IMG/VR virus record: IMGVR_UViG_3300010400_000026
Location: 1-50,145 of that record
Length of the DNA: 50,145 bases
From: a virus
Direction: 5' to 3' (one strand)
Shown piece by piece: positions 1 to 25,717 of this stretch. How positions within the stretch are numbered: the stretch's first letter is position 1; every line of letters begins with the position of its first letter. The translations under genes were made by a program, and so were the position numbers. A model generated the notes under the pieces. It was given only the letters and a program-made list of their open reading frames with translations, made no database searches and was not told the origin of the DNA.

Positions 1-2
1 AA

Positions 3-149: not shown

Positions 150-164
150 AAGGAGTAAGGAACG

Positions 165-929: not shown

Positions 930-980
930 CATCATTTCCGGATTCGCCTCGTGTCGATGAGCATCACATCGCCATAGGCG

Positions 981-2218: not shown

Positions 2219-2221
2219 CCG

Positions 2222-5767: not shown

Positions 5768-5774
5768 GGCATGA
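5646..5774 (+). CDS. Possible 42-residue membrane peptide
   Basis: ATG at 5646 overlaps the stop of the upstream ejection gene (TGATG), and its own TGA overlaps the next ATG (ATGA at 5771-5774). The 42 residues contain one hydrophobic run (VMVWVPVLWMAMTPIPI) and a basic tail. The coupling pattern is the one used throughout this genome, which is the main support. It is antisense to a better-looking minus-strand membrane frame, so it may be a shadow. Confidence 0.35.
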   Translation: MGKVSSIVCSKVMVWVPVLWMAMTPIPIQRAEKTSQARRSTA

Positions 5775-5908
5775 ATGTTATCACAACAAGGCGAAGAGTG
5801 ACACCCCGGCGACGGCAATTAACATACAGTTCGCTGCCACCGCAGCCCAAGGAGAAACGCGACGTGCTGATGCCCAAGGTTCGGGAGTTGCTGCGGGCGG
5901 ATCCGTGA
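5771..5908 (+). CDS. Possible 45-residue basic protein
   Basis: ATG at 5771 sits in an ATGA overlap with the preceding short frame, and TGA at 5906-5908 overlaps a following GTG (GTGA). The product is very basic at its N-terminus (TTRRRVTPRRRQ) and ends with a short helix (VRELLRADP). No family is recognised. The two perfect overlaps make chance less likely, but the gene is short and partly antisense to the alternative minus-strand frame. Confidence 0.38.
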   Translation: MNVITTRRRVTPRRRQLTYSSLPPQPKEKRDVLMPKVRELLRADP

Positions 5909-6243
5909 GCGCCATGATCCGGTTTCTCGGCTCGATTGTCTCGCTGGTTTGGCTCTGGGGTTCGTTCTTTGTTGCCGGCCAGATGCAGGTCAATCAATCG
6001 CGTACCGTGCAGGAGCGCTTTTACGAACATCTGCGGACTTCCGATGTGGAATCGGAAAAGCTCGCCCAGCTTCAGCGCCAGGTGCAGGGTTTCGATGCGA
6101 TGCGGCTGGATTCGCGGCTGACGGTGCTGGAGACGCGTGCAGCCGTTCTGCAGTGGCTGGTGACCGGGCTATTCTTTCCGGTGAGCATCAGTGCGGTGGA
6201 AGCGCTGTTGCGGATGTGGGACAAGAAACGCCACCAGCCGTAG
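5905..6243 (+). CDS. Small two-helix membrane protein with coiled coil (holin/lysis candidate)
   Basis: 112 residues from GTG at 5905, with an in-frame ATG at 5914 as an alternative. A hydrophobic helix at about 4-24 (MIRFLGSIVSLVWLWGSFFV) and a second at about 80-97 (VLQWLVTGLFFPVSISAV) flank a charged stretch predicted as coiled coil (SEKLAQLQRQVQGFDAMRLD). Two helices with a helical loop fit a holin, a spanin-like protein or a virion membrane protein. The endolysin lies elsewhere (45.3 kb), so location gives no proof of a lysis role. Confidence 0.6.
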   Translation: MSAMIRFLGSIVSLVWLWGSFFVAGQMQVNQSRTVQERFYEHLRTSDVESEKLAQLQRQVQGFDAMRLDSRLTVLETRAAVLQWLVTGLFFPVSISAVEALLRMWDKKRHQP

Positions 6244-6266
6244 GCCGCTGCTACAGTAAGAATTCC

Positions 6267-6539
6267 ATGTCAGACGCAGAAGTTTTGGAAGAGTTGATTG
6301 AGCGGGCGCGGAACGTGAAGGCGCGGTTGGTGAGGCTCTCCGATGCGGCCCTGGTCTATTCCGAGCGGTTCCTGGAGCTCGGGCGGGCGCTCAAAGCGGA
6401 AGGCGGTCTGCGTGCCGGTTTCCCGTTTGAGGACTGCGACGTGGCCGAAGTGAAACGCATTTTAGAGGAGTTGCCGGAGCTGCGATCGGAACTGAGCAAC
6501 CTGGAACACCGGATCAAGCGGAGAACGGCACTCGAATAG
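6267..6539 (+). CDS. Small helical hypothetical protein
   Basis: 90 residues from ATG at 6267; the same frame is open further upstream, but the natural start is this MSDAEVLEEL. It is almost all charged helix, with heptad-like Leu spacing in the second half (VKRILEELPELRSELSNLEHRI), so a coiled coil is likely. It ends three bases before the next gene. No family is recognised. Confidence 0.6.
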   Translation: MSDAEVLEELIERARNVKARLVRLSDAALVYSERFLELGRALKAEGGLRAGFPFEDCDVAEVKRILEELPELRSELSNLEHRIKRRTALE

Positions 6540-6542
6540 CCT

Positions 6543-6908
6543 ATGGAATACTTTTGCATGGACGTGGCCAACGCCAGAATCGCTTCCGAAGCTGCGCCGC
6601 GTATTCACGCATTGCTGCTGAAGGTGCTGGGCCCGGCGAAAGCGAGACCGACGATGACGATGAACCGCGAGTGGCTGGTGGATTTCAAGGAACTCTCGCA
6701 GCTGAGCATTCCGTGCACAAAATGCAAAACGCGCGTGCTGCTGGACGCAACCGATCAGGATGCGCGGATACCGGATGAATGCCCGGCGTGCGGTGCCGAA
6801 TATGGCGAGGTCTTCCGGAGCACGCTGAAGCTGTACCGGGATGTCTACCGCAGATTGGCGGACCCGGGCGGCCACGCGGTGCAGGTGCGGATCGCGTCGG
6901 CAGACTAA
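6543..6908 (+). CDS. Zinc-ribbon hypothetical protein
   Basis: 121 residues. The central part holds two Cys pairs, IPCTKCKTRVLL and DECPACGAEYG, about 20 residues apart, the spacing of a structural zinc ribbon. The rest is helical and basic. Such small zinc proteins are common in phage accessory regions, and several others occur in this window. It is the last + strand gene before the minus-strand regulatory cluster, whose nearest stop is ten bases away, so the two units converge here. I see no hairpin with a T-run between them. Confidence 0.6.
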   Translation: MEYFCMDVANARIASEAAPRIHALLLKVLGPAKARPTMTMNREWLVDFKELSQLSIPCTKCKTRVLLDATDQDARIPDECPACGAEYGEVFRSTLKLYRDVYRRLADPGGHAVQVRIASAD

Positions 6909-6917
6909 GCTAAGCGT

Positions 6918-7424
6918 TTACTTCGCAGCAGTCGGTTTGACTTCGATCTGTGCCGGCGCCGACCGCTGCGGAAGGTTTAATAACCCGTCTCTTAACGCAG
7001 CCGCGCCGGAGTTCTTCGCGATCAGATACAAACCATCCAGATAATCAACAAGCGTCACCTTCCCGGGTTTGAACGCTTCGAGTAAGCCGACGATTGCCAC
7101 CCGATAGTCATCAAAATCCGGCCGCCGAGAGCGTAGAACTTGAATCGCCTGGCTGAAAGCAGGCTCACCAATATCGAATGGAAGCGCGGCCTCCGGAATT
7201 TGGCGCTGATGCAATTCTCGAAGTGCGGCAGTCTCGGCAGCCGCCAATTGTTCCTCCCGCCGTGCGCGCGCTCGTAAGAATTCGGCCTCTGCTTGCGCCC
7301 TTTGTGCCCGTGCACCTGCTTCCAGTCCACGCCCGAGAGCCTCGGCTGGGTTGAAAACCTGAACCTGTGCAACGGCACAAGGAAACAGCTGTGTCGCAAA
7401 ACCCAAAATCACCAATACTTTCAT
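6918..7424 (-). CDS. Exported helical protein in the lysogeny-side operon
   Basis: 168 residues starting at ATG 7424, chosen because a perfect AGGAGG lies seven bases upstream and the N-terminus is a textbook signal peptide (MKVLVILGFATQLFPCAVAQ, cut expected after AVA). The mature part has a strongly charged Ala/Arg/Glu helix (RAQRAQAEAEFLRARARREE) and a C-terminal helical domain. The frame is open upstream to ATG 7610, which would give a 230-residue membrane-anchored form overlapping the RHH gene. It lies downstream of that regulator on the same strand, so it may be expressed from the prophage and act in the periplasm. Function unknown. Confidence 0.62.
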   Translation of the reverse strand: MKVLVILGFATQLFPCAVAQVQVFNPAEALGRGLEAGARAQRAQAEAEFLRARARREEQLAAAETAALRELHQRQIPEAALPFDIGEPAFSQAIQVLRSRRPDFDDYRVAIVGLLEAFKPGKVTLVDYLDGLYLIAKNSGAAALRDGLLNLPQRSAPAQIEVKPTAAK

Positions 7425-7539
7425 GGCTTGTCCTCCTACCGTTCGCTCAATGAGTTCTTCCATTTCTGTCCGGTATAGCTGAAGTAGTTCCTCCGCGTGG
7501 CGTAGCAACTGCACTAGGCTTCGCATCCGCGCCAGCATT

Positions 7540-7920
7540 TCATCCGCGGCCTCCCGCCCGTTTTTTCTTCGTTTTGACAGCAGGATGAGATTGCTGGTGT
7601 TGGCTGCCATGCCCCCTGACCTGAACGTACTCCTGAAAGACCTCCAGGCTCTGAGTCACCATGCTGATCGCGCGATCGTTGCCGCTTCGCAATACTTCGT
7701 CGAGCATTTCGAACAGCTTACGGTGCTGAGGAGGATATTGTGCCCCAACGGTGGCCGCAGGCTCAATCAGGGGTTTCCCTCCCCCTTTGTGTAGGTACTC
7801 CTCGACGGCTTTCTGTGTGACGGCCCACAGAGGCAGTTCCTCATCGAGCGCGCGCTTTTTCAGTTCCTTATGGAGCGTTTCCAGCATCTCCATCCCGAAC
7901 TTTTTTCGCTTCTGTTCCAT
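7540..7920 (-). CDS. Ribbon-helix-helix-type regulator (leftward)
   Basis: 126 residues. The first 45 look like an RHH DNA-binding fold: a short basic strand (KRKKFGMEML), a helix with KELKKRALDEE, then a second helix (LWAVTQKAVEEYLHKG). RHH proteins bind DNA as dimers through the strand. A linker and a C-terminal helical part (QHRKLFEMLDEVLRSGNDRA) may oligomerise. The start codon is eight bases from a 14-bp palindrome shared with the divergent RHH gene, so mutual or self repression is likely. No ribosome site precedes the ATG. A plasmid-partition or antitoxin-like role is an alternative. Confidence 0.6.
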   Translation of the reverse strand: MEQKRKKFGMEMLETLHKELKKRALDEELPLWAVTQKAVEEYLHKGGGKPLIEPAATVGAQYPPQHRKLFEMLDEVLRSGNDRAISMVTQSLEVFQEYVQVRGHGSQHQQSHPAVKTKKKRAGGRG

Positions 7921-7928
7921 CGGTTTAC

Positions 7929-7942
7929 GTGCACGAGTGCAC
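7929..7942. promoter_or_regulatory. Operator palindrome O1
   Basis: GTGCACGAGTGCAC: two GTGCAC half-sites, each itself palindromic, separated by GA. An almost identical site lies exactly 30 bp to the right, about three helical turns, so dimers bound at both would face the same side. It ends eight bases before the leftward RHH start codon. Confidence 0.72.
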
Positions 7943-7950
7943 TTTTGGTA

Positions 7951-7978
7951 TTGACTTAGTGCACCAGTGCACTATACT
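7951..7978 (+). promoter_or_regulatory. Sigma-70-type promoter for the rightward RHH gene
   Basis: TTGACT at 7951-7956 and TATACT at 7973-7978, separated by 16 bases, closely match the -35 and -10 consensus. The expected start of transcription is around 7984-7986, only two to four bases before the ATG at 7988, so the transcript should be leaderless or nearly so. The spacer is almost entirely filled by operator O2. Confidence 0.75.
7959..7972. promoter_or_regulatory. Operator palindrome O2, inside the promoter
   Basis: GTGCACCAGTGCAC, the second copy of the GTGCAC-NN-GTGCAC site. It lies between the -35 and -10 boxes, so a bound repressor would block RNA polymerase. Its centre is 30 bp from that of O1. 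Confidence 0.75.
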
Positions 7979-7987
7979 GCTCATGTA

Positions 7988-8158
7988 ATGCAACCGAACA
8001 CAGTAACACAGCCAGACGAGGCAAACACCACGATCGGAACTATGCGGTGGCCCACTGAGTTGTGGAGAGCGATCAGGAAGCTCGGCATAGACCGCGGCAA
8101 GTCTGGACAACAGATCGTTATCGAAGTCATGGAGCAGTGGCTGAAAGACCAACGCTGA
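7988..8158 (+). CDS. Small ribbon-helix-helix repressor (rightward)
   Basis: 56 residues, the size of Arc-type repressors. After a short polar arm comes a strand/turn (TIGTMRWPTELWRAIRKLG) and a second helix (GKSGQQIVIEVMEQWL), the usual RHH order. The start is ATG 7988; a GTG at 7967 in the same frame is rejected because it lies inside the promoter. With transcription starting two to four bases upstream there is no room for a ribosome site, so translation should be of the leaderless type. It is the likely owner of operators O1 and O2, repressing itself and perhaps the divergent gene. Confidence 0.72.
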   Translation: MQPNTVTQPDEANTTIGTMRWPTELWRAIRKLGIDRGKSGQQIVIEVMEQWLKDQR

Positions 8159-8171
8159 AAGGAACGCATCC

Positions 8172-8525
8172 ATGGCGATCACGCCCACGCAGGAACACGA
8201 TTCGGAAACCGGCAGGATGTCCAGCATCCCCCCGGCGAACGAACGCGCACAGGGCACGGCAAGCGCAATTTCCGAGAGTAGCGACGTTGCACGTGGAACG
8301 GGTGAGGCCGCCGTACAAGGCCGTCCAAAGGCGAGGCGTGTGGCGAACCGTGATCGCGGATTCACAGCGGCGGAACTTTCACCGCGCTTCCGCGCACGCA
8401 TCTTTCTGGAGTTTGTAGAGAACCCCTCGACGGACCGGATCGCGGACCGATTTCACGTGCCGCGCATGACGGTGATTGAAGCAGTGCTGTATGAGCAAGT
8501 GCGCCGAGATCGACGCTCGGCCTGA
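8172..8525 (+). CDS. Small helix-turn-helix-like protein
   Basis: 117 residues with AAAGGA eight to nine bases before the ATG. The first 50 residues are polar and low in complexity, followed by a basic linker (GRPKARRVANRDRG). The last 45 residues look like a helix-turn-helix (STDRIADRFHVPRMTVIEAVLYEQVRR), where the turn and following helix resemble a DNA recognition unit. It may be an early regulator next to the RHH switch. No named family is recognised. Confidence 0.55.
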   Translation: MAITPTQEHDSETGRMSSIPPANERAQGTASAISESSDVARGTGEAAVQGRPKARRVANRDRGFTAAELSPRFRARIFLEFVENPSTDRIADRFHVPRMTVIEAVLYEQVRRDRRSA

Positions 8526-8535
8526 AAGGAGACGT

Positions 8536-9099
8536 ATGAACTTTTTTTCCAGTCGCCGGCGAGGCGACGAAGTAATGGCGGGGCTCGAAAGAGTCCACGT
8601 CGGTTTCTTACCCCACACGCAGTTGCGCAGCGTGAACAACCCGGCTTTTAACGAAGCCGTGCAGATAGCCATCGGGCGATCGCGCGCCACACCGACCGGC
8701 AAGCACATTACCGCTCTCTGCGATCACATCGAACACCTGGAAGCACAGAATAACGTTCTGCTCGACGAAGTGGCTTCGCTGCGTGCGCGGGATCTGCGGC
8801 TGCAGAAGCAGGCCGCGGATATGTTCCAGCACATGACCGCAACACTGCGAGCCGCCAACAAAAATCACAAGCCAGACGAAGGCAATGTGAATAAGGGGCG
8901 CGGAGATTCGGATGGGCCGATCCCAGATTCCGACGCGCCCCGCCGGTATCCCGAGAACGTCCTAAAAGCTCCGGACCTGGTTGGGATTCGGGCGCGCGGC
9001 CAGCATGACCGCAGATGGCTCGCGGCGCTCGCGGTGGCGTTCCTGACGTTCGCGGTGATTTTTATCATCATTTTCGTCGATGTCTGGGGCGGGAGGTGA
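8536..9099 (+). CDS. Tail-anchored coiled-coil membrane protein
   Basis: 187 residues from ATG 8536, chosen for the AAAGGAG site before it. An N-terminal soluble part is followed by a coiled coil (IEHLEAQNNVLLDEVASLRA), a polar linker, and a C-terminal membrane helix (LAALAVAFLTFAVIFIIIFV) with a very short tail. This topology places the bulk in the cytoplasm, attached to the inner membrane. Function unknown. A strong GGAGGTGA at its 3' end serves the next gene. Confidence 0.62.
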   Translation: MNFFSSRRRGDEVMAGLERVHVGFLPHTQLRSVNNPAFNEAVQIAIGRSRATPTGKHITALCDHIEHLEAQNNVLLDEVASLRARDLRLQKQAADMFQHMTATLRAANKNHKPDEGNVNKGRGDSDGPIPDSDAPRRYPENVLKAPDLVGIRARGQHDRRWLAALAVAFLTFAVIFIIIFVDVWGGR

Positions 9100-9103
9100 C
9101 GCC

Positions 9104-10396
9104 ATGGACAACGAAACTCAGGTGGTCCGCTACACCCCGGGCGAAGTAGCAGCTGCCGACTGGATGCCCGTTTTTGACATCGGGCTCGCATTACAGCGCC
9201 GCACGGCCATGGTGGATTTTGTCAAACAGATCCTGGTCGAAGGCACGGATTACGGCAAAGTGCCGGGCTCGGATCGGGATTGCCTGCTGAAACCAGGCGC
9301 CGAAAAGCTGGCAACGTTTTTCGGCCTGGTGGTGGAGTTCCAGCTCGAGAGTTCGGTCGAGGACTGGACCGGGAAAGATCACGGCGACGAGCCGTTTTTC
9401 TATTACCGCTACAAGTGCCGCCTGCTGAAGAATGGGCGCTCAATTGGCGAAGGCGTTGGCTCCTCGAACTCGTGGGAGAGCAAGTACCGGTATCGCTGGG
9501 TGCAGGAATCAGCGTTGCCGGCGGAATGGAGTCAGGAACAGGTCGACGCCCTGGTGAAGCGCGGCGGCACGATCTTCGAATTCGATTTCGCCATCGATAA
9601 AGCCGAGACGACTGGAAGATACGGCAAGCCGGCCGATTATTGGCAGCGATTCAAGAACGCAATCGCGGACGGCACCGCGCGCAGCGAAAAGCGCGACACG
9701 AAGAACGGCCAGCGGCCGGGCAAGGTGATTGACTCAACGCTCTACCGCGTGCCGAATCCGGACGTGTGCGATCAAGTCAACACGCTCCAGAAAATGGCTC
9801 AGAAGCGCGCGCAGATCGCGGCGGTGCTGGTGGGCGTCAACGCCTCGGAATACTTCACGCAAGACCTGGAAGACACGCACAGTGAAACGCCCGAGCAGGT
9901 AGCGGAGCGGCGCATTGCGGAGGAACAAAGCAAGATCGACGCGGCGAAACAGACCGCGCAAAGCCCTCAGCCTGGCGCGGCTGAGACTGGCCCACATGCA
10001 GCCAGAGCCACTGCATCGGGTCACAAGGCGGGGAACGGGCATTCGTCTCCTTGTCCCGTTCCCTCCTCCTCACCGGAAATTCCGGCTGCCGTGCAGGTCA
10101 TCTGGGCCCGCATGAGCTCGATCAAAGGCGTCTGCACCGAGCTGGAATCGCTCAAAAAGTCGCTGGTCGAAGTCTGCGGCCAGGAAGTGGGCGAAGGGAT
10201 CTATTACCGAATTCTCGAGAAGAGCGGCGTCGAGCATGCCAACCAGTTCAAGAGCTCGCAACCGGCGCGCCTGTGTGCGCAGCAGCTGTACAAGGCGCTC
10301 CAGGGCGAGCTGGAGATGCAAAAGCCGCACGGTGATTTTCAGGCTACGGATGCGGATCTCCCCGCTGAGTTGTTAGACACGAAAGGAGTTGCGTGA
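9104..10396 (+). CDS. Probable single-strand annealing / recombination protein
   Basis: 430 residues from ATG 9104, behind GGAGGTGA. Conserved-looking strings are KPGAEKLATFFGL (63-75), FFYYRYKCRLLKNGRSIGEG (about 98-117), a WESKYRYRW block (about 124-132) and, near 220-245, YRVPNPDVCDQVNTLQKMAQ with KRAQIAAVL. I know this arrangement from uncharacterised phage and bacterial proteins with ERF/Rad52-like features, and the Gp157-family gene soon after supports it, since such genes often sit next to annealing proteins. If correct, it would pair complementary single strands during phage recombination. The C-terminal third is variable linker plus a small helical domain. Confidence 0.5.
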   Translation: MDNETQVVRYTPGEVAAADWMPVFDIGLALQRRTAMVDFVKQILVEGTDYGKVPGSDRDCLLKPGAEKLATFFGLVVEFQLESSVEDWTGKDHGDEPFFYYRYKCRLLKNGRSIGEGVGSSNSWESKYRYRWVQESALPAEWSQEQVDALVKRGGTIFEFDFAIDKAETTGRYGKPADYWQRFKNAIADGTARSEKRDTKNGQRPGKVIDSTLYRVPNPDVCDQVNTLQKMAQKRAQIAAVLVGVNASEYFTQDLEDTHSETPEQVAERRIAEEQSKIDAAKQTAQSPQPGAAETGPHAARATASGHKAGNGHSSPCPVPSSSPEIPAAVQVIWARMSSIKGVCTELESLKKSLVEVCGQEVGEGIYYRILEKSGVEHANQFKSSQPARLCAQQLYKALQGELEMQKPHGDFQATDADLPAELLDTKGVA

Positions 10397-10701
10397 TGCC
10401 AACGCACGCGTCCCATTACGTGCATTTTCAGCTCCTCAAACCCATAGAGCCGTTGCGCGTCACGGTTGATGTTGTGTCATCCGGCTCCGGCTCCGGAACG
10501 GTGCACATCTCATTGGATGCTGGCCTTGATGACCACCACCTGTTCATGACGCGGGCTCAGCTCGAGGCCTTAGGGGAAGCGATCCAACGCGAGATTCAGC
10601 GGGATGGCGCAGTGGTAGCGCGCGAGGCTCATAACCTCGAGGCCGTGGGTTCGAGTCCCACTCCCGCAACCAATTCAGCAGAGAAAGCCGAGGTGGCGTG
10701 A
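10396..10701 (+). CDS. Small hypothetical protein whose frame runs through a tRNA gene
   Basis: 101 residues from ATG 10396, which shares a base with the upstream stop (GTGATG context) and follows an AAAGGAG. The first 70 residues form a believable small beta-rich domain (LRVTVDVVSSGSGSGTVHIS, then FMTRAQLEALGEAIQREI). The last 35 are encoded by the tRNA-Met gene at 10598-10672 and its flank, and look like tRNA read as protein. The stop nonetheless overlaps the next start as TGATG. The original protein may have ended near 10600 before a tRNA was acquired. Confidence 0.5.
   Translation: MPTHASHYVHFQLLKPIEPLRVTVDVVSSGSGSGTVHISLDAGLDDHHLFMTRAQLEALGEAIQREIQRDGAVVAREAHNLEAVGSSPTPATNSAEKAEVA
10598..10672 (+). 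tRNA. tRNA-Met (anticodon CAT), CCA encoded
   Basis: A full cloverleaf of 75 bases: acceptor AGCGGGA / TCCCGCA (10598-10604, 10662-10668), D stem GCGC/GCGC, anticodon stem CGAGG/CCTCG around loop CTCATAA (CAT at 10630-10632), variable AGGCC, T stem GTGGG/CCCAC around TTCGAGT, then A and CCA. Six of seven acceptor pairs form; the first, A1-A72, is mismatched. A 1-72 mismatch marks initiator tRNAs, but the anticodon stem has A29-T41 instead of the third G-C pair, so initiator, elongator or Ile(CAT) identity is open. Confidence 0.88.
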
Positions 10702-10859
10702 TGCGGTTCATTGTTTCGCTCGGTGACGTGCGGGATCGTGACGGCAACCTCGTCGCGCCCGTTCAACATGTGGATTACGGCGATTGGCTTGATGGCTCTG
10801 AGAAGCCAGAACCCATTTCAGATCAGGAGGAACGCGAACATGGCGACCATGACCGCTAA
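10701..10859 (+). CDS. 52-residue acidic hypothetical protein
   Basis: ATG 10701 overlaps the preceding stop (TGATG). The product begins MRFIVSLGDVRDRDGN, a compact start, and ends in a very acidic and His-rich tail. Its 3' end overlaps the next gene by 20 bases and carries that gene's strong AGGAGG ribosome site. No family is recognised. Confidence 0.5.
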   Translation: MRFIVSLGDVRDRDGNLVAPVQHVDYGDWLDGSEKPEPISDQEEREHGDHDR

Positions 10860-11511
10860 CCAGCCAGCGCTGGTACGCACACAAAGCCTGTGGGACATCG
10901 ACGAGCAGTTGCAGCTGCTGATGGAACAGGCGCAGTGGGAGGAATCGGAAGCCGGCGCGGTGACGCCGGAAACCATGGAAGCGCTCAAAACCTATTTCGC
11001 GGCGGCGGTCCAGAAGGTAGATCGCATTGCGGAGTTCCTGAAAGCTCAGGAAGCGCTGGACCGGATGCGCAAGGACGAGAGAAAACGCCTCGACGAGCGC
11101 GGCAAGATCGAGCAGTCGAAATACACGCGGTGCCTGGCCATGCTCCAGGGGTTCCTGGAAGCCCGCGGTATCACCCAGATCAAAGGCAAACTGAACACTA
11201 TTTCGCTCTGCAACAATGCACAGCCATCGCTCAAGATCACCGACGACAAGCAGGTGCCGGAAGAGTTCCAGCGAGTGTGCATCACGGTGAAGCGGGACTG
11301 GTGGGATAAGTGGGTCCAGGCGCAAGAGCTGGGCCATGACTTCGTGGAATTCGACACGCTGCAGCGGACGCTTGCGGTTGATCTCGCGAAATCCATGACG
11401 GATGTTTCCGATCCGTTCATCGACGAGGCGGCAGTCAAAGAGCGACTGATCGAGGGAACGCTGGTGCCGGGCGCGGACCTGATCCTCGGCAAGCACGTGC
11501 GGGTGCGCTGA
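10840..11511 (+). CDS. Siphovirus Gp157-family protein
   Basis: 223 residues from ATG 10840, set by AGGAGGAA just upstream. It has the Gp157 layout: an N-terminal Gln/Glu-rich helix (LWDIDEQLQLLMEQA), a long central coiled coil with Lys/Arg-rich repeats (RMRKDERKRLDERGKIEQSK), then a short beta part (ARGITQIKGKLNTISLCNN and a PSLKITDDKQVPEEF turn). The founding members came from Streptococcus thermophilus phages and were linked to phage resistance; the family is often found beside recombination genes, as here. The C-terminal 70 residues extend beyond the usual family end. Confidence 0.7.
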   Translation: MATMTANQPALVRTQSLWDIDEQLQLLMEQAQWEESEAGAVTPETMEALKTYFAAAVQKVDRIAEFLKAQEALDRMRKDERKRLDERGKIEQSKYTRCLAMLQGFLEARGITQIKGKLNTISLCNNAQPSLKITDDKQVPEEFQRVCITVKRDWWDKWVQAQELGHDFVEFDTLQRTLAVDLAKSMTDVSDPFIDEAAVKERLIEGTLVPGADLILGKHVRVR

Positions 11512-11765
11512 TGATCATCGGTCTGCTGCTGCGCATTCTATCGACCTTGCAAACCATGCTGGCGCGTCAAGCGGAAAACCACAAAGCGGTAATGAGCCGG
11601 CTGGCGGCGATCGACTTCACCATTGTGTTGCACGGGGAAAAGCTGGCGGCGATTTTGAACGCGCTCACTTCAACGACGGACATCGTACTCACCGAGCAGG
11701 AAATTAGCGATCTTCGCGAGAAGGTCAGGCGAATCCGGCAATCGATCGGATCATTCAATCCATAA
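11511..11765 (+). CDS. Small helical hypothetical protein
   Basis: 84 residues; ATG 11511 overlaps the Gp157 stop (TGATG). The N-terminus is mildly hydrophobic (MIIGLLLRILSTLQTML), followed by helices that could form a coiled coil (EQEISDLREKVRRIRQSIG). It could be peripherally membrane-bound. No family is recognised; the tight coupling suggests that it works with the Gp157-like protein. Confidence 0.58.
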   Translation: MIIGLLLRILSTLQTMLARQAENHKAVMSRLAAIDFTIVLHGEKLAAILNALTSTTDIVLTEQEISDLREKVRRIRQSIGSFNP

Positions 11766-11785
11766 AACAGGAGAACAAAAACGAA

Positions 11786-12016
11786 ATGGGCGACCAACCC
11801 CCTCAACCAACACTGACGGCGTTCGAACAGTTGAACGCAGACCTGGACGATCTGGGAGCCGACTTGACGGCGAAGTTTGCCGAAATAAGCGCCGAAATCA
11901 CGACGCTGAAAGAACAGGCCGCTGCTGGCGACCGCATCACGGTGGAGCAGCTGAATTCGCTGCACGCCAAGGTGCAGGGCCTCGACGATTCCGTCACCAG
12001 CTTCATGACGACGTAA
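11786..12016 (+). CDS. Small coiled-coil hypothetical protein
   Basis: 76 residues, ATG 11786, with CAGGAG about 12 bases upstream. Nearly the whole chain has heptad-like spacing (FEQLNADLDDLGADLTAKFA and EQLNSLHAKVQGLDDSV), so a coiled-coil oligomer is expected. No Cys and few aromatics. Function unknown. Confidence 0.58.
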   Translation: MGDQPPQPTLTAFEQLNADLDDLGADLTAKFAEISAEITTLKEQAAAGDRITVEQLNSLHAKVQGLDDSVTSFMTT

Positions 12017-12083
12017 GTTTCCCGCGCGGTGCGGGTAGAGCCGAGCGCTGGCGGCTGGCCAGTGCAGCTTGATTGAAACTACC

Positions 12084-12118
12084 AGGCCGTTCTGCTTCAG
12101 AAGGGGGCAGAGCGGCCT
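12084..12118 (+). other. 12-bp inverted repeat in a 201-base gap
   Basis: AGGCCGTTCTGC at 12084-12095 pairs with GCAGAGCGGCCT at 12107-12118 (one G-T pair), with an 11-base loop. No run of T follows, so a standard terminator is not supported. The surrounding gap (12017-12217) shows no gene I can support. The hairpin may be an RNA structure or a protein-binding site between the Gp157 operon and the integrase operon. Confidence 0.45.
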
Positions 12119-12217
12119 CGAATGAGCTTCAGCACTTCCGAGAGACGCACTTGGAAGGTGAGTCGAACTCGGAGCCGTGCTTGGCGGTGCTGGGGCTCAT
12201 TGGAGAGAACGGGATCC

Positions 12218-12412
12218 ATGGCAATGACGATCACCAAAGCAAAGACCGCTGGCTCGGGACGTATTGAGAAAAACCTGGAGATGGCAAAGCAGACCGTCTC
12301 GACCGCGCGGTTGATCGCAGAAGCGCCATCAGGTCTGGAATTCTCCGAGCGCAAGAAGGCTGTTTCGCCTTACGACAGCGTTTCGAAAGCCATGGGAGCG
12401 ATGCAGAAATGA
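12218..12412 (+). CDS. 64-residue hypothetical protein
   Basis: Starts at ATG 12218 (MAMTITKAKTAGSG) with GGAGAG about ten bases before it; an upstream ATG at 12122 in the same frame would add an unlikely Arg/Ser-rich stretch. The body is helical and polar, ending in SPYDSVSKAMGAMQK. It overlaps the next gene as ATGA. Unrecognised. Confidence 0.5.
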   Translation: MAMTITKAKTAGSGRIEKNLEMAKQTVSTARLIAEAPSGLEFSERKKAVSPYDSVSKAMGAMQK

Positions 12413-12777
12413 TGGCCTGGTACTCCATTCTGCGCCGCACGCGCGTAAAACCACGTCGCGCGAAACCGCGCAAGGGCCGCGTCTACGACCAGAACTATCT
12501 GGACTGGATCCACACGCAGCCGTCGATTGTTCCGACGCATGCCCCTGAATGTTGGCGAACAGTATGCTCGATGACTGCCCACCATGTGCGGGAATACGGA
12601 TCGCCGAAGGATGACACCGCGACCGTACCGTTGTTCGCCTGCCACCACATGCACGCTTTCGGACACGCCACCATGGAGCACGGCAAGCGGGCCTTTGAGG
12701 AGCGCCACAACCTCAGCCTGGAAGCGGAGATCGCGCGGCTGCGCGCGCTGTATCTGGCCACGGAGCAGGCTCAATGA
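12409..12777 (+). CDS. HNH/Ref-like putative nuclease (DUF968-type)
   Basis: 122 residues. A basic N-terminus (KPRRAKPRKGR) is followed by a Cys (PECWRTVC), then MTAHHVREYGSPKDD, then VPLFACHHMHAFGHATMEHG. The pattern of AHHV, a DD-acidic turn, CHH, and HG in a short helix resembles the His-Me finger fold of small phage HNH proteins such as P1 Ref and DUF968 members, which nick or cut DNA, some with RecA. The HH of AHHV would be the catalytic/metal pair. It starts in an ATGA overlap and ends in another with the integrase frame. Nuclease activity is inferred from motif only. Confidence 0.55.
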   Translation: MMAWYSILRRTRVKPRRAKPRKGRVYDQNYLDWIHTQPSIVPTHAPECWRTVCSMTAHHVREYGSPKDDTATVPLFACHHMHAFGHATMEHGKRAFEERHNLSLEAEIARLRALYLATEQAQ

Positions 12778-12824
12778 GAACCGAATTCGATATGCTTTGC
12801 CTGTCGCAAGGAGACGACGATGCT

Positions 12825-14093
12825 ATGGCAAGGCGAAGACTGCAACTCAAAGGGCATTTGTACCGGGATGGCCGCTGGTGGCGGCTCCGGTGGCGGGAAG
12901 ACGTCATCGGGGAAGACGGAAAAATCACGCGCTCTCGACCGACGGCGGTGATTGCGGCGTGTAAGGGACGGGGCTCGTTCACGCGCAAGAAAGCTGAACG
13001 GCTGGCATGGGACGCGATCCTCTCGAAACTCGATCAAGCGCAGATGTGCCCGCAATCCATCATGACGCTCGGTGATTTCGTAGAGCGGCATTTCATTCCG
13101 GAGCACGTACAGTTGAAGAAACTCGCGGGCAGGCGGCATTACGCCACGATCCTCAAGCACGTGATCGTTGCGCTGGGTTCGAAGACGCTGCGGGATATCG
13201 GCCTGGGTGACGTGCAGCGCCTGGTGGCCGGCATGGTGGGCCGCGAGTACCGCTACGCGGTGGGCAAGGGCAAGAACAAAAAGATCCGTACGGGCAGCTA
13301 CAGCGTGCAGACGGCGGTTCATGTGCGCAACGCCATCAGCGCGATCTTTCGGCACGCGAAACAGAACCGGATGTATGCGGGGGATAATCCCGCCGAGCTG
13401 GTGCGGCTGCCGGAAATGCAACGTCGTGAATCGCACGCGCTCAGTGCCGAGCAGATGACCGAGCTGCTGGAAGTGCTGGAATCGCCGACGCGCGAGCTGG
13501 CGCTGTTTGCCACGCTGACATCGATGAACATCGCCGAGCTGTGCGGCCTGGTGTGGCGGCGGGTGAATCTCGCGGACACCTGGTTGACGGTCGACGGGGA
13601 AGTGCTGCCGCCCATGACGCTCGCGGTTCGGCAGCAGTGGTATCGCGGGGCGTACGGCACGGTCAAAGCGCGCAGTCGCAGGCGCAACCTGCCGATTTCG
13701 CAGGATATGGCTGCCGAACTTGCAGCGATTCGATGCAGATCCAAGTTTATCGGCCCCGACGATCCAGTCTTTGCGGCGAGCACGGGCCGACCGGTCGATG
13801 AGCATAACCTGGCCAAGCGGAAACTGAAGCCCGCAGGCGTAAAGCTCGGTATGCCGTGGCTCTCCTGGCACGCGTTTCGACGGACACATACAACGCTGGC
13901 GGATCAACTCGAAATGACGGCAGGCGACCGGGTAGCCATGATGGGGCACGCCGATTTCCGGATGACCTCGCATTACACGGTGGTGGATCTGGACCGGCGG
14001 CGCGCGGTGATCGAGCGCATGGGCGAAGTATTAAAGAAACCGGCTCACCGCGAGTCGGGTGAGTTGGTGTTGGTGCGCGCGAAGGCGAAATGA
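12825..14093 (+). CDS. int: Tyrosine recombinase / phage integrase
   Basis: 422 residues from ATG 12825 (MARRRLQLKG, the usual N-terminus of this group, with AAGGAG 11 bases upstream); an ATG at 12774 overlaps the preceding stop and would add 17 residues. An N-terminal arm-binding part, a core-binding helical domain (about 80-185) and a catalytic domain (205-400) follow. Catalytic residues seen: K281, H349-x-x-R352, H375 and Y384. The usual first Arg of box I is replaced by Asn235 (TSMNIAELCG). It should join the phage to the host chromosome; the tRNA-Val fragment 1.1 kb downstream is the probable attP. Confidence 0.88.
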   Translation: MARRRLQLKGHLYRDGRWWRLRWREDVIGEDGKITRSRPTAVIAACKGRGSFTRKKAERLAWDAILSKLDQAQMCPQSIMTLGDFVERHFIPEHVQLKKLAGRRHYATILKHVIVALGSKTLRDIGLGDVQRLVAGMVGREYRYAVGKGKNKKIRTGSYSVQTAVHVRNAISAIFRHAKQNRMYAGDNPAELVRLPEMQRRESHALSAEQMTELLEVLESPTRELALFATLTSMNIAELCGLVWRRVNLADTWLTVDGEVLPPMTLAVRQQWYRGAYGTVKARSRRRNLPISQDMAAELAAIRCRSKFIGPDDPVFAASTGRPVDEHNLAKRKLKPAGVKLGMPWLSWHAFRRTHTTLADQLEMTAGDRVAMMGHADFRMTSHYTVVDLDRRRAVIERMGEVLKKPAHRESGELVLVRAKAK

Positions 14094-14096
14094 AAT

Positions 14097-14546
14097 ATGG
14101 CCCATAGCTGTCCGGACTGTTCCCAGGCCTGCTACTGCAACGGCGACATCGACGACTGCCTGCTCGATGACGATGATGCAATCAACGCGTGCACGCATTG
14201 CGACGACGAAGGCGATTTCTTCGAGGAATCGGATGAACGACATCTGGGTAGCGCTGATTATCGCTCTGCTGTTGACCTGGCGCTACCACGCGAGGCGGCG
14301 ACGGTGATGCGCAATCACAAAATAGAGACGCGGGACATAAACGGCAAGCAACGGGAGTGCGCCGTCTATGCGTTCAAATGCGAGGGCTGCGGTGCCGAGG
14401 GCGAGATCGCCGTGCCGCTTGTCGAGTTTGGCCCGTTCGGGTGTCCGGAGGGATGCGGAGCAACATATATCCAGTGGAGGCCACCCGCAGGCGGGTACGC
14501 GCTCCAATGTGTCGTTTGCCCGGTTTTCGAAGAGCCCGAAGAATGA
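14097..14546 (+). CDS. Cys-rich zinc-binding protein, possibly two genes in one frame
   Basis: 149 residues, two parts. Residues 1-50 are Cys/Asp-rich (SCPDCSQACYCNGDIDDC then CTHCDDEGDFFEE), a common small phage zinc protein. Residues about 71-149, beginning at an internal ATG 14307, form a second Cys cluster (FKCEGCGAEGEIAV, GCPEGCGATY, CVVC). Between them lies a stretch that reads better in another frame as a 24-residue membrane peptide whose stop overlaps ATG 14307. The ORF may therefore be a fusion, or three small genes. The final stop overlaps the next ATG. Confidence 0.55.
   Translation: MAHSCPDCSQACYCNGDIDDCLLDDDDAINACTHCDDEGDFFEESDERHLGSADYRSAVDLALPREAATVMRNHKIETRDINGKQRECAVYAFKCEGCGAEGEIAVPLVEFGPFGCPEGCGATYIQWRPPAGGYALQCVVCPVFEEPEE
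14233..14307 (+). CDS. Possible nested 24-residue membrane peptide
   Basis: In a different frame inside the larger Cys-rich ORF, ATG 14233 follows GAGGAA and encodes MNDIWVALIIALLLTWRYHA plus four Arg: one membrane helix with a positive end. Its TGA overlaps an ATG of the second zinc module (TGATG at 14305-14309). The ribosome site, topology and overlap together support it, though it is very short. Confidence 0.35.
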   Translation: MNDIWVALIIALLLTWRYHARRRR

Positions 14547-14788
14547 CAGACATCGTTGAATCGCTGGCCAGCAAGGAATTCGAACGCCTGGGCCAGAACA
14601 TTCTGCGGTTACTGGCCAACGTGGGCGAGCTGGGCCACTGCAAGGGCTGTGGTGCGGTCGTCTACTGGGTGACGCACCGCAGCGGCAAAAAGGCACCGTA
14701 TACCCAGGACGCGACAATTCATTTTGCGAACTGCCCGCAGGCGGCGCGGTTCAGAAAACGGAGGGATGGGGATGATCGAGAAGACTGA
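14543..14788 (+). CDS. Small zinc-finger-like hypothetical protein
   Basis: 81 residues from ATG 14543 in an ATGA overlap. Helical N-terminus, then CKGCGAVVYWVTHRSGKKAP and, near the end, HFANCPQAARFRK. The CxxC plus H-x3-C set is typical of small phage zinc proteins, often encoded near integrase or replication genes. Function unknown. Confidence 0.6.
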   Translation: MTDIVESLASKEFERLGQNILRLLANVGELGHCKGCGAVVYWVTHRSGKKAPYTQDATIHFANCPQAARFRKRRDGDDRED

Positions 14789-15146
14789 CGATGTGCGGAG
14801 AATAATTGGCACGCCGCTGCCGGAGAAATATATACTCGGCGTCGACCCAGCCACCGGCAGGGATGTCAGTCGCGAAGCGCCGCGCCGCAGGAACGAGTTC
14901 ATCGAAGAGCTGGTGAAGTTCCGCGGCAGCGAAATCACCGTCACCACAGCACGGGGCAAGGTCTACGAAGGCGTTTGCAGCGCTGTGAGCCACTCCGATA
15001 TGTGGGTGGTGCTGCGAACGCCGAGGGAAAAGATTGTGATCCGTGACGTGGTGGAGATTCGGCGCAAGCGCACACACCCTTTCGCTGGCGGCCTGGCGAA
15101 GGACGAAAAACCGAACGATTCTGGACCGCTAGAGGACAAAAACTGA
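14772..15146 (+). CDS. LSm/Sm-like small protein with terminase-like peptide
   Basis: 124 residues from ATG 14772 (MIEKTDDV), chosen because GGAGGG lies six bases upstream; ATG 14766 is too close to it. Residues about 50-100 (FRGSEITVTTARGKVYEGVC, HSDMWVVLR, KIVIRDVVEIRR) follow the strand order of the Sm/LSm/Hfq barrel. Before that, KYILGVDPATGRDVSREA closely matches a motif of this phage's own terminase nuclease (YVLGVDTATGKDVSDEA). The fold call is inference. The gene ends just before the tRNA-Val fragment. Confidence 0.5.
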   Translation: MIEKTDDVRRIIGTPLPEKYILGVDPATGRDVSREAPRRRNEFIEELVKFRGSEITVTTARGKVYEGVCSAVSHSDMWVVLRTPREKIVIRDVVEIRRKRTHPFAGGLAKDEKPNDSGPLEDKN

Positions 15147-15181
15147 TGCAAGTGATTGACGGCACAGGGTCGAGCGTCGGC

Positions 15182-15226
15182 CTTACAAGCAGGAGGGCAC
15201 TGGTTCAAGTCCAGTACCGCCCACCA
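15182..15226 (+). other. Probable attP core: 3' half of a tRNA-Val (UAC)
   Basis: From the anticodon loop CTTACAA (15182-15188) through stem GCAGG, variable AGGGC, T arm ACTGG-TTCAAGT-CCAGT, acceptor strand ACCGCCC, A and CCA (to 15226), this is the 3' half of a tRNA-Val. The matching acceptor GGGCGGT is absent upstream, and the 5' anticodon stem (TCGGC) pairs poorly, so it is not a working tRNA. Tyrosine integrases commonly use such identity blocks: on insertion the phage copy restores the host tRNA gene. Weak similarity extends left to GAGCG (15172-15176). Confidence 0.75.
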
Positions 15227-15344
15227 CAAACCCCTGTAGTTCCAACAAACGATTCGGACGCAGGTGTCCGCAATTCCCCCGCTGAACCCCTAACAAGTGA
15301 CGATTCTGGGCAGGTACTGGCCAGAAATCCGAAGGGACGCTCAT

Positions 15345-15584
15345 ATGCCCTGTAACCACGTTGAGCTTCCCAATGGCGGGCACGCGATCATCTGCAGCCG
15401 CGGCGGGCAGAAGCGGTGTCACTACTGCGGAAGACCTGCTCCGGTTCTTTGCGATTACCCGGTCGCCACTCACAAGAGTGGCACCTGTGACCGACCGTGT
15501 TGCCGCGCTCACGCTGTGAACGTAGGTGCGGATCGCGACTATTGCCTGACGCACTCGAATGTGGCGGAACCAGTAAAACCATGA
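15345..15584 (+). CDS. Cys/His-rich zinc protein A
   Basis: 79 residues from ATG 15345 after AAGGGA. Motifs in order: CHYCGRPAPVLCDYPV, then CDRPCCRAHAVNVGADRDYC, then LTH. The layout (CxxC, a CD-aromatic-PV turn, CxxxCC-x2-H, DYC-x2-H) suggests two zinc sites. The following gene has the same layout split by an insertion, so the two are tandem relatives. The 118 bases between attP and this start hold no other gene I can support. Confidence 0.62.
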   Translation: MPCNHVELPNGGHAIICSRGGQKRCHYCGRPAPVLCDYPVATHKSGTCDRPCCRAHAVNVGADRDYCLTHSNVAEPVKP

Positions 15585-15965: not shown

Positions 15966-16517
15966 ATGTCTCAACTAACGTTCCGCGGGGCCTTCCTGCG
16001 GTTTGCGGATCTGCGCCACAAAAAAGAGGCGGGCGTGTTCGCGCGCCTGCATTTCACCGCGGATCTGACCAAGCCGGTGATGGAGGCCATGGAGTGGGCT
16101 GAAATCCCGGATTGCATGAACAGCGCCAAGCTGTGCGGTCTGCTGACGGCGCGCAACCTGGTGCTGACGCCCAACCAGAAGGAGCTGCGGAAAAGCGAAA
16201 TCCAGCTCGATTGCAACGAAGTGGGCGACTTCCAACTGTTCCGTGTCCAGGACAAAGACGACAAAGACAGCACACGGACCGAGCTGCGCTTTGTAGCCCG
16301 TGTGGTGGCGCGCGGCGCGATCGCGGTGTGCGAGGAATACTTGCGCACGGTCGGCACGTCTCAGGGCGCGCTGAAGATCGCCTACGAAGACCAGGGCGAG
16401 CTGGCAATCGAAGAAAAGCCCGCCGGGAAAACGAAAACCAATGGCACCGCGCAGCTCGACATGAAGCAGCGCCAGGCCGGAGAAAAGGAGTCCAGTGTTG
16501 CCAACTACCCAGACTGA
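15966..16517 (+). CDS. Hypothetical early protein
   Basis: 183 residues from ATG 15966 behind AAAGGAG. It opens with a beta-rich stretch (MSQLTFRGAFLRFADL, ARLHFTADL) and has a central part ending in ELRFVARVVARGAIAVCEEY, then a polar disordered tail. Proteins of this look occur beside phage recombination or replication genes, but I cannot name the family. Its tail overlaps the start of the ParB-like gene by 23 bases and supplies that gene's ribosome site. Confidence 0.6.
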   Translation: MSQLTFRGAFLRFADLRHKKEAGVFARLHFTADLTKPVMEAMEWAEIPDCMNSAKLCGLLTARNLVLTPNQKELRKSEIQLDCNEVGDFQLFRVQDKDDKDSTRTELRFVARVVARGAIAVCEEYLRTVGTSQGALKIAYEDQGELAIEEKPAGKTKTNGTAQLDMKQRQAGEKESSVANYPD

Positions 16518-18117
16518 ACCGGGCGCGCCGGCCATCATGAACTTCAGCCGGATCCCGCTCAAGAGCCTGATCGAATCGAAGACTAACCCGCGGCGCACGT
16601 TCAACCCCGCGCAGCTCGACGAGCTGACCCGGAGCGTCAAGGAAAAGGGCGTGCTGGTGCCGCTATTGGTGCGGGCGCTGCCCAACGGCAATGCCCCGAG
16701 TTTTCTGTACGAAGTCGTAGCGGGCGCACGGCGCTTTCGCGCAGCCAAAGCCGCAGGGCTCGTGGAGGTGCCGTGCGAGATCAAAACCCTGAACGACAAG
16801 GAAGTACTCGAGATCCAGTTGATCGAGAACTCGCAGCGGGCCGATGTGCATCCGCTCGAAGAAGCGCAGGCCTACCGGCAACTGCTCGAGAAGCACGGCT
16901 ATGACGTACAGGCGCTGGCGATCCGCGTGGGGAAATCGGAAAGTTACGTCTACGCGCGGCTGAAACTGAGCGATCTGAACAAGCGCGCGGCCGATGCGTT
17001 TCTGGCGGAAAAGATCACAGCCACCCATGCGCTGCTGATCGCGCGGCTGCAACCCAAAGACCAGGTGCAAGCCATCGAGTATTGCTTGGGCCAGAGCGGC
17101 GTAGGCTACCACGAAGATGTGGCGACAGCAGTCGAGCTGCGGTTGTGGATCGAGCGCAACATTCTGCTGGATCTGCACGCGGCGCCGTTCAAGAAAGACG
17201 ACGCGACACTCGTTCCGGAAGCCGGGGCCTGCACCACATGCCCGAAGCGCACCGGATTCACACCACAGTTATTTGCTGACATCAAGGCGAAGGACACCTG
17301 CACGGATCCGGCGTGCTTCAACGGCAAGGTGGACGCGTTCATTCAGATCCAGCTGACCGAGTGCAAGGAGCTGGTGCAGCTGTCGAGCGAGTACTCCGGG
17401 TACGGTTCCACGATCCCCAAGGGTGTGCTCTCGCGGAACGATTACCGGCCCATCGAGAAGGACAAAGACGCTTGCGCGAACACGGAGCCGGGCATCCTCG
17501 TGCACGGGCAAAATCGCGGCAAGCGCATCCGTTTCTGTCGGGCGAAGGACTGCAAAACACACAAGTCCTCGTCATCAGCTTACCGGCGCACCCCGCAGGA
17601 GATCGCGGCCGATAAGCAGCGGCGGGCCAAACAGCAGCAGCACGAGAGAACGCGGCTCGCAATCGCGAATGCCGTATTGGAGAAGGCCGATAAACATGAA
17701 ACGCATGTGGCGGAGTTCATCGTTCGCAGTATGTTCCAGGCATCCCATTACGACCGGCAGGCGTGGCTGGCAAAGCGGTGGAACCCGGGCCACAAGGGAC
17801 GATTTGACTTCAGTCAGATCACACAAGCTCTGAACGTGCGTCTTGCGAAGCTGGGCGGTGGCACGGCGCTCTACCAGGTGGCGCTCGAAATCGCCGTTGC
17901 GCGGGAGTGTGACCGCGGCGGGCCGAACGCGTACGGATACAAGGCCTCGGAAGATCCGATGCTCGTGCTGGCGAAGCACGCCGGCGTCAACGTGAAGGCC
18001 ATCGAAACGGCCATCGAAACGGCTGTGGCCGCCAAGTTCGCTAAGCAAGCACCGAAGTCGCCGGACAAAAAGCCTGCGACTCCCAAGAAACCGAAGCCGG
18101 CCAAACGGAAGAAATGA
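16495..18117 (+). CDS. ParB/RepB/Spo0J-family DNA-binding protein
   Basis: 540 residues from GTG 16495 (AAAAGGAG upstream; TTG 16498 is possible). The N-terminal ParB domain shows the CTP-binding boxes GARRFRAAK (77-85) and ENSQRADVHPLEEA (111-124), followed by a helix-turn-helix (ALAIRVGKSESYVYARLKL, about 140-158). A central Cys set (CTTCPKR ... CTDPACFNGK) may bind zinc, then a long helical region and a Lys/Pro-rich tail. No ParA is present in the window. A lone ParB may serve plasmid-like maintenance or act as a regulator or nuclease-type ParB. Confidence 0.85.
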   Translation: MLPTTQTEPGAPAIMNFSRIPLKSLIESKTNPRRTFNPAQLDELTRSVKEKGVLVPLLVRALPNGNAPSFLYEVVAGARRFRAAKAAGLVEVPCEIKTLNDKEVLEIQLIENSQRADVHPLEEAQAYRQLLEKHGYDVQALAIRVGKSESYVYARLKLSDLNKRAADAFLAEKITATHALLIARLQPKDQVQAIEYCLGQSGVGYHEDVATAVELRLWIERNILLDLHAAPFKKDDATLVPEAGACTTCPKRTGFTPQLFADIKAKDTCTDPACFNGKVDAFIQIQLTECKELVQLSSEYSGYGSTIPKGVLSRNDYRPIEKDKDACANTEPGILVHGQNRGKRIRFCRAKDCKTHKSSSSAYRRTPQEIAADKQRRAKQQQHERTRLAIANAVLEKADKHETHVAEFIVRSMFQASHYDRQAWLAKRWNPGHKGRFDFSQITQALNVRLAKLGGGTALYQVALEIAVARECDRGGPNAYGYKASEDPMLVLAKHAGVNVKAIETAIETAVAAKFAKQAPKSPDKKPATPKKPKPAKRKK

Positions 18118-23947: not shown

Positions 23948-25717
23948 GTGTCGAGAGCCCAAGCTCTATCCGAGCAGGAACGCGTCCGAATTCTATCCGC
24001 GTTCGCGGATCATCCGCAATTCTGTCGTAGCTCGCTTCGCATTGCGAACAAGATGGGCCAGACCGTGCCCATCGAACTCAGCCCCATGCAACTCAAGGTG
24101 GACGCGGTGAAGCGCACGCAGCGCGCCGCCGGCAAGCCCGTGCGCGTGGTGATCCTCAAGCCGCGCCAGGTGTTCACGAGTGTCGGTGTCGCGACCGAAA
24201 TCTACAAAGATGTGGCCTTTCTGCCGGGCCAGCACGCGATGGCATTCGCTGACAGCGACAAGACCGTCCGCAACCTGTGGAGCTATTACGAACAGCTGCA
24301 ACGGCAGTACATCCCGTTTGAAGGCATCAAGCAACTGAAGCCGCTCAAGCCGCGATTCGGTGACGAGGTGCGATGGGATCGCGATTCCTGGGTGCAGACG
24401 GCGACCGCCAAGACTGCCACCTCGGGAAAATCCTACTCGATCCGGCATCTCCAGCTCGACGAATACGCCTACTACGGGGACTCGGCGGCGCTGATGACCA
24501 ACGTGCTGAACTCCGTGCCCGATGACGTGTTCACCAGCATCTACGTGCTCTCGACAGCCAACGGGCTCGGTGGTCCGTTCTACGAGCTGTGTCAGCGCGC
24601 GATGGACCCGGCCAGGCGTGGGGAATGGATCTTCCTGTTCTTTGCCTGGTTCGAGCATCCCGAGTACACACGCCCGCTCTCAGCAGACGGGTTCGATGCC
24701 CGGCGCTTCCAGGATTCGCTCGACAAGCAAGAACTCCACTTGATGGAGCGCGATGGTGTGTCACTCCCGCAGCTCAACTGGCGACGTTGGGCCGTTATGA
24801 ACAAGTGCGAAGGCTCGATCGATCGCTTCAACCAGGAGTACCCGAGCAGTCCCGAGCTGGCGTTTCTCACGTCAGGCCGTCCAGTCTATGACAGCCGCGC
24901 GCTCTCAATGATGCCCATCGTCCGCGAGCCCATGATCGGTGGACTCCAGGAAGTCGATATCGGCACGCGCCGGCTGGTGCAGTTCATTCCCCGCGACAAT
25001 GGCGAGCTGCGCGTATGGAAGCGGCCGCAGGAAGGGCGAGCCTACGTGCTGGGTGTGGACACTGCCACCGGCAAAGACGTCAGCGACGAAGCCGGTACCT
25101 CGCTCGCAACGTCTGATCCGGATTTCAGCGTCGCGCAAGTGCTCGATCGCGATACCGGCGAGCAAGTAGCCTGCCTGCGTGGGCGCATCGAACCGGATCC
25201 GTTTGCGGAATACACTTGGGCCCTGGCCGCCTGGTACAACTGGGCCTTCATCGTTCCGGAAAAGAATTTCGGCTCCGGCATCGCGTTCATCGAGGGTCTG
25301 TTACGCCGGCAATACCCGATCGGTCTGATCTATCAGCGCAAGCGCAACGCAGATGACCGGCGCAGCCCCAGCCTCCAGGAGCTGGGCTTCGACACCAACC
25401 AGGTGACCAAGCCCCAGCTGATCTCGATCGCCGCGCGCGCCATCCGCGAAATGTCCGTGCTGATTCACGATCCCATCACGCTCCAGGAACATCGCACGTT
25501 CGTGTACAAAGCCAACGGACGCATGGAAGGGATGCGCGGCTGCCATGACGATTGCGTGATCGGTTTCGCGCTGGGGGTTGTGGGAATCGGTGCTGCCCCG
25601 CGCGAGGTTCGGCGCATGGAACACCAGCTCGTAGGGACCAGGCCGCCAATGGGCCAGACCGGGCCAGTTCCGTACGGCCGCCGGCGCCGGCTCGATGAAT
25701 TTGCCGAGGTGAGGTGA
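23948..25717 (+). CDS. terL: Terminase large subunit
   Basis: 589 residues, a normal length. ATPase part: Walker-A-like KPRQVFTSVG (71-80) in the variant form without GKT, and Walker B LQLDEY (168-173). Nuclease part: YVLGVDTATGKDVSDEAG (Asp371) and, near the end, CHDDCVIGFALG, giving the RNase-H-like acidic residues. The enzyme packages DNA into the prohead and cuts it. GTG 23948 follows the preceding stop directly and has no clear ribosome site, so a somewhat later start is possible. The stop overlaps the portal start. Confidence 0.93.
   Translation: MSRAQALSEQERVRILSAFADHPQFCRSSLRIANKMGQTVPIELSPMQLKVDAVKRTQRAAGKPVRVVILKPRQVFTSVGVATEIYKDVAFLPGQHAMAFADSDKTVRNLWSYYEQLQRQYIPFEGIKQLKPLKPRFGDEVRWDRDSWVQTATAKTATSGKSYSIRHLQLDEYAYYGDSAALMTNVLNSVPDDVFTSIYVLSTANGLGGPFYELCQRAMDPARRGEWIFLFFAWFEHPEYTRPLSADGFDARRFQDSLDKQELHLMERDGVSLPQLNWRRWAVMNKCEGSIDRFNQEYPSSPELAFLTSGRPVYDSRALSMMPIVREPMIGGLQEVDIGTRRLVQFIPRDNGELRVWKRPQEGRAYVLGVDTATGKDVSDEAGTSLATSDPDFSVAQVLDRDTGEQVACLRGRIEPDPFAEYTWALAAWYNWAFIVPEKNFGSGIAFIEGLLRRQYPIGLIYQRKRNADDRRSPSLQELGFDTNQVTKPQLISIAARAIREMSVLIHDPITLQEHRTFVYKANGRMEGMRGCHDDCVIGFALGVVGIGAAPREVRRMEHQLVGTRPPMGQTGPVPYGRRRRLDEFAEVR

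Follow-up and report, generated by a model that had tools for sequence, protein, structure and literature searches.

The 3' half of a tRNA-Val(UAC) as the likely attP core of a probably unintegrated Acidobacteriota phage genome

The stretch of DNA analysed here, referred to as the window, is IMG/VR record IMGVR_UViG_3300010400_000026 over positions 1-50,145, and all coordinates are given on it unless otherwise stated. At 15182-15226 (+) the window carries the 3' half of a tRNA-Val(UAC), CTTACAAGCAGGAGGGCACTGGTTCAAGTCCAGTACCGCCCACCA, containing the anticodon loop CTTACAA (15182-15188, with the anticodon TAC at 15184-15186), the 3' strand of the anticodon stem, the variable loop, the whole T-arm, the acceptor 3' strand and the terminal CCA. 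The acceptor and T stems of this half are intact, and agreement with the tRNA consensus begins at 15180, with the GC of the anticodon stem, giving a half tRNA-Val block of 47 bases. The 45-mer is present as a single copy in the window and appeared in none of 100 shuffles, even when three mismatches were allowed. On both strands of the window no Val 5' half was found, the best match having 13 of 32 positions mismatched, which is the level of shuffled sequence; ARAGORN and Rfam reported a tRNA-Met alone, with no tRNA-Val and no match to an intron family. This tRNA-Met (CAT) gene (10598-10672, +) is complete and overlaps ORF 10393-10701. Joining of the block in silico to the Val 5' half of the Bryobacterales genome G612 or of L034 gave a called tRNA-Val(tac) with full acceptor pairing, for which the phage half requires a host gene starting with GGGCGGT, and no tRNA was called from the block preceded by its real upstream sequence. 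Complete tRNA-Val(UAC) genes match the 45 bases at 43 or 42 positions, and the original prediction that this sequence is tRNA from the anticodon loop to the CCA, and that its 5' half is missing, is confirmed by these analyses.

A tyrosine integrase of 439 aa (12774-14093, +; PF00589 above the cut-off, PHROG integrase at 5e-44) ends 1,088 bp before the half tRNA, in line with the 1.1 kb first noted. The window thereby holds two elements of a tRNA-directed attP in the sense of Islander, a tDNA end fragment able to restore a tRNA and a tyrosine integrase within the element; flanking of the integrated element by a tRNA and a fragment in the same orientation is seen in the G612 prophage and in the integrase relative G426, both described below. 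As had been claimed, phage genes lie on both sides. Those left of the integrase (1-12777, +) include a Gp157/Gam-like gene (10711-11511), and those right of attP (15894-49198, +), whose collinear orthologs follow attL in the G612 prophage, comprise ParB-like, replication O-like and RusA-like genes, the terminase large subunit (23948-25717, +), the next large gene in a portal-like position (25714-27921, +) and a tail region reaching up to a fibre-like gene (45659-49198, +). The ParB-like protein (16495-18117; ParB_N and HTH_ParB) could be relevant to a plasmid-like stage, and a 1229-aa protein of the structural region (32336-36025) carries a polysaccharide-lyase domain (PF14099) and is possibly a tailspike depolymerase. 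Directly before attP, 14724-15146 encodes a small protein with an Sm/ataxin-2-like domain (PF14438, 4e-7). The small ORF 14357-14788, conserved in its C-terminal part (also L158:6668-6850 and L133:11821-11982), has moved across att, being located on the integrase side in the window but, in G612, at the attL end of the prophage, immediately within it; in G420 it lies upstream of the integrase.

The genome G612 contains, on contig C57, a related and collinear prophage of 44.5 kb (35303-79910). One end of this prophage is a complete tRNA-Val(UAC) (tac, 35303-35379) and the far end is a Val(UAC) 3' half on the same strand without a 5' half (79866-79910), beyond which aminotransferase class IV and pyruvate:ferredoxin oxidoreductase genes represent host DNA. 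Orthologs of 12 window ORFs (starting at 15894, 23948, 25714, 36401, 37857, 38572, 39099, 41462, 42824, 43560, 44652 and 45659) are found in the same order, followed by the integrase (match at 78127-79317, 41% identical to that of the window). The window gene order opened at 15182 reproduces this arrangement, and therefore the block 15182-15226 is read as attP and the record as the unintegrated form. The tRNA-Val(UAC) target, the layout and the gene collinearity are common to both phages, whereas their proteins are only ~29-48% identical overall (44% for the terminase and for the next gene, 25714) and the integrase lies ~0.55 kb from the half in G612 and 1.09 kb from it in the window. The prophage thus occupies the position foreseen for the window phage, a host tRNA-Val with anticodon UAC, and its layout, together with the tRNA-adjoining habit of the integrase family, upholds the assignment of the block as an attP formed from the tRNA 3' half. 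No terminal repeats were found in the record; an ortholog of 1568-2218 is located beyond the fibre gene in the G505 and G494 prophage regions (28-32% identity), so that the two ends of the record are, judged from gene order, probably neighbours. The record is most likely an unintegrated genome.

The likely crossover zone is formed by the anticodon arm and the start of the variable loop (15180-15197, +; GCCTTACAAGCAGGAGGG); its extent is extrapolated from G612 and its last base is unlike that of the hosts. The exact attL/attR repeat of G612 is only 24 bp long (CTGCCTTACAAGCAGGAGGTCCGC, same tRNA positions), so that the exchange would occur within the anticodon arm or variable loop; the idea of a crossover at the anticodon is retained in this wider form, since ~24 bp do not resolve the 7-base loop CTTACAA alone. 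In G612 the T-arm of the rebuilt tRNA (GCAGTTCAAGTCTGC) and that of the displaced copy (GCGGTTCGAGCCCGC) are separated by four transitions that leave pairing intact in both stems. Most simply, these two sequences would mean that the G612 phage brings a functional 3' half of its own; alternatively, either copy may have drifted later, in which case the displaced copy would be expected to lose pairing. A phage-supplied T-arm unlike the displaced host copy explains the absence of an exact host match for the window 45-mer. A wider proposal, which we advance tentatively and hold to be somewhat less probable than its opposite, is that lysogeny gives the host tRNA-Val(UAC) a diverged, phage-evolved T-arm and acceptor 3' strand in place of its own, that the hybrid tRNA would serve translation in the lysogen, and that attP and host would need to match over the ~20-bp anticodon arm only. 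The swap pattern is visible in G612, where attL and the displaced half differ by a compensated change in the T stem, and for the window it is suggested by the absent exact host match.

The exact 45-mer or 43-mer was absent from the genome and viral contig collections searched, and a degenerate tRNA pattern had no match among the viral contigs. A slightly degenerate pattern of the half tRNA-Val recovered 79 loci in genome contigs, and nearly all of the best 40 are complete tRNA-Val(UAC) genes. Among these best 40, two loci (Planctomycetota L016 and Latescibacterota L062) match at 43/45 with two mismatches and ten at 42/45 with three mismatches, nine of the ten being from Terriglobia/Bryobacterales or Acidobacteria. 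Because the tRNA-Val(UAC) of many genomes is a near-match, the tRNA half by itself does not identify the host. The anticodon arm CTTACAAGCAGG is identical in many hosts, and the tRNA-Val(UAC) of the actual host would be expected to start with GGGCGGT and to contain CTGCCTTACAAGCAGGAGG. The comparison of the 45 bases with Acidobacteriota that had been proposed as a check gave no exact match, which is understandable if phage and host halves may diverge in the T-arm; tRNA-Val(UAC) genes match at 42/45, and a related prophage with a second 3' half is present in G612. Of the outcome named as damaging, that no bacterial tRNA-Val has such a 3' half, one part was found, the absence of an exact copy in the genomes searched, against which stand complete genes at 42-43/45. 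A tRNA-Val(UAC) 3' half without a 5' half, broken at the anticodon loop, is also present in a Bacteroidales contig (JAFZOU010000096.1; L015:5536-5576) and is probably an independent integration scar.

Among 396 sampled Acidobacteriota genomes, the integrase has its best relatives at 54, 39, 38 and 38% identity, and the window integrase is 38-54% identical to tRNA-adjoining integrases of Bryobacterales. The order of the best relative includes Bryobacterales contigs, and a search of 257 genomes of the order for integrase and TerL found relatives of both, including the best terminase match (1e-149). Planctomycetota, to which L016 with one of the two nearest tRNA halves belongs, was taken as a control; in a 246-genome sample of this phylum there was no integrase at 1e-20 and the terminase matched only to 2e-31. 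Against the phage collection, integrase and terminase had remote matches only (~23-29% identity in the best rows); in viral contigs, a single-sequence integrase query found remote relatives only, and an alignment-based scan was more successful. The phage host is most likely a member of Acidobacteriota, order Bryobacterales, and the earlier proposal of an Acidobacteriota host is supported by the Bryobacterales prophage of G612. No chromosome bearing the window phage itself turned up among the genomes searched.

Many of the closest integrases lie no more than a few hundred bases from a tRNA gene or 3' half, with Val-GAC, Val-CAC, Arg, Pro and Thr represented; near some others, such as those of G182, G639 and G652, no tRNA gene or half was found. 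Integrases facing the CCA end of a complete tRNA occur in G198 (Val-GAC), G426, G158 and G048 (Val-CAC) and G475 (Arg), and integrases that, like that of the window, run into a solitary 3' half in the same direction occur in G612 (Val-UAC), G442, G449 and G420 (Arg) and G505 (Thr). The IMG/VR contigs L202, L204, L205 and L208 also have a co-oriented 3' half, Arg or Lys, after the integrase. The gap between integrase and half is ~50-650 bp in relatives versus 1.09 kb in the window, and the integrase is on the anticodon side in the window and on the CCA side in the very closest relatives G198 and G426. In G426 the tRNA-Val and its duplicate lie 44.3 kb apart with 51 identical bp that begin in the 5' strand of the anticodon stem and end shortly beyond the CCA; a phage-type att motif after the second copy (C43 near 66733; L139) suggests that another element is inserted in tandem at this tRNA-Val. 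The integrase-only relatives (G426, G198, G442 and others) contain no other window gene, except for one small ORF in G420, and were consequently used for att habits only. Across this Bryobacterales integrase family, tRNA genes of several isotypes (Val, Arg, Lys, Thr and Pro) are in use, and the family offers candidate binding sites.

One candidate integrase or accessory binding site is GCAAGTGATTGA (15148-15159, +), which matches [GC]YAAGYNNTTGA and precedes the anticodon loop by 34 bp, an offset also seen in G442; the inverted motif is found at +49 in G442, G612, G198 and G426. There is one copy in the window, one in a 90-kb stretch of G612 and two in 94 kb of G426, all of them at the offsets named; several other relatives lack the motif there. 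The consensus was drawn from these att sites and does not change when the window is left out. A 10-bp direct repeat, ACGATTCTGG, stands on both sides of the half tRNA, at -67 (15115-15124, +) and +118 (15300-15309, +), and its copies may be arm-type sites; similar repeats, TTCTGGCCACCA and TTTTGGCCACCA, flank the G612 att sites.

Taking together the identity of the block, its missing 5' half, the integrase and the layout of the related prophage, we propose with high confidence that 15182-15226 is the attP core of a temperate tailed phage of soil Acidobacteriota, that the integrase encoded at 12774-14093 acts at tRNA-Val(UAC), and that the window is the unintegrated form. In the proposed mechanism the integrase would recombine attP with the host tRNA-Val(UAC) inside the common anticodon-arm region, the host 5' half and the phage 3' half would rebuild a working tRNA at attL, and the original host 3' half would be displaced to the integrase end as attR. 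The predicted prophage would run from the complete tRNA through replication genes, terminase, tail genes and fibre to the integrase, the 3' half and host genes, and the window form would correspond to circular, replicating or virion DNA.

The claim that the window is the excised form stands as far as the unintegrated layout is supported by G612; the junction of two tandem prophages at one tRNA-Val, a double lysogen, would have a middle att site identical in look, and the two cannot be told apart because the record is without terminal repeats. The possible tandem in G426, with phage-like sequence also after the second tRNA copy, is a precedent for the latter, but the 15 kb on the left and 35 kb on the right make up a single non-redundant phage gene set, as in one permuted genome, and we consider a double lysogen improbable. 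The distance of the half from the integrase, larger than in relatives, would fit a captured tRNA piece or inert relic in place of a working attP; nevertheless both the acceptor stem and the T stem are preserved, exactly this tRNA position and layout are used by the G612 prophage, and the att-associated motif occurs only once in 50 kb, at 34 bp from the half and offset as in G442, which makes a relic very unlikely.

Two readings take the block as part of a larger gene. A small protein gene, ORF 15146-15355, might span attP and change its C-terminus upon integration, since its ATG is coupled to the preceding stop and its frame is open through the tRNA half, with the same frame in G442, G612, G449 and G505. 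However, the MQVxD start common to G442 turned out to be a DNA motif, GCAAGTGNTTGA, found on either strand at fixed offsets, and for that reason this candidate was dropped; moreover the upstream parts have only 4-12 codons and are otherwise dissimilar, and in G420 a stop follows soon after entry into the half, so that we judge such a gene to be highly improbable. The existence of a CCA-ended half with intact stems could finally indicate an unusual tRNA that is nonetheless complete, being split, permuted or intron-containing, an objection raised with the original prediction as unusual 5' pairing. This has an almost negligible probability, given that no 5' half above chance and no tRNA or intron family match were found in the window and that the 3' half is an integration scar in relatives.

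With the attP assignment, both the lysogeny site and the host range of an uncultured Acidobacteriota phage become testable, and such att/int pairs could serve as integration tools in a phylum where these are scarce. The divergence of the phage half is also a warning that exact att-to-tRNA matching can overlook true hosts.

Among known systems, the tRNA-dependent lysogeny of mycobacteriophages also involves a tyrosine integrase and an attB in a tRNA gene, but in that system a core of ~10 bp leaves the tRNA unrestored, and a full tRNA of the same isotype is encoded by the phage (PMC10865867). The window phage has instead a full 3' half of 45-47 bp, which with a host 5' half is called as tRNA-Val, and its only tRNA is Met, no complete tRNA of the disrupted isotype being present in the window; this system was accordingly rejected as a model. 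The Francisella prophage FhaGI-1 and phage KIRK (PMC7924643) show the same layout, with tRNA-Val at attL and the integrase at the far end beside an attR consisting of a tRNA-Val 3' end, although in an unrelated host phylum. Such 3' tDNA fragments centred on the anticodon are widespread: among the islands listed by Islander (PMC4383910), 2,083 have anticodon-centred sites and 3,760 have 3' fragments. Its class 'A' corresponds to the present case in having a 3' tDNA fragment in attP, a rebuilt tRNA and a displaced fragment flanking the element, and a crossover region at the anticodon arm. The present case differs in concerning an uncultured Acidobacteriota phage without an exact host, whose relative in G612 has a phage-supplied half with another T-arm. 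The mechanism itself is ordinary and well known, and it is confirmed here by a related prophage inserted where the prediction placed it.
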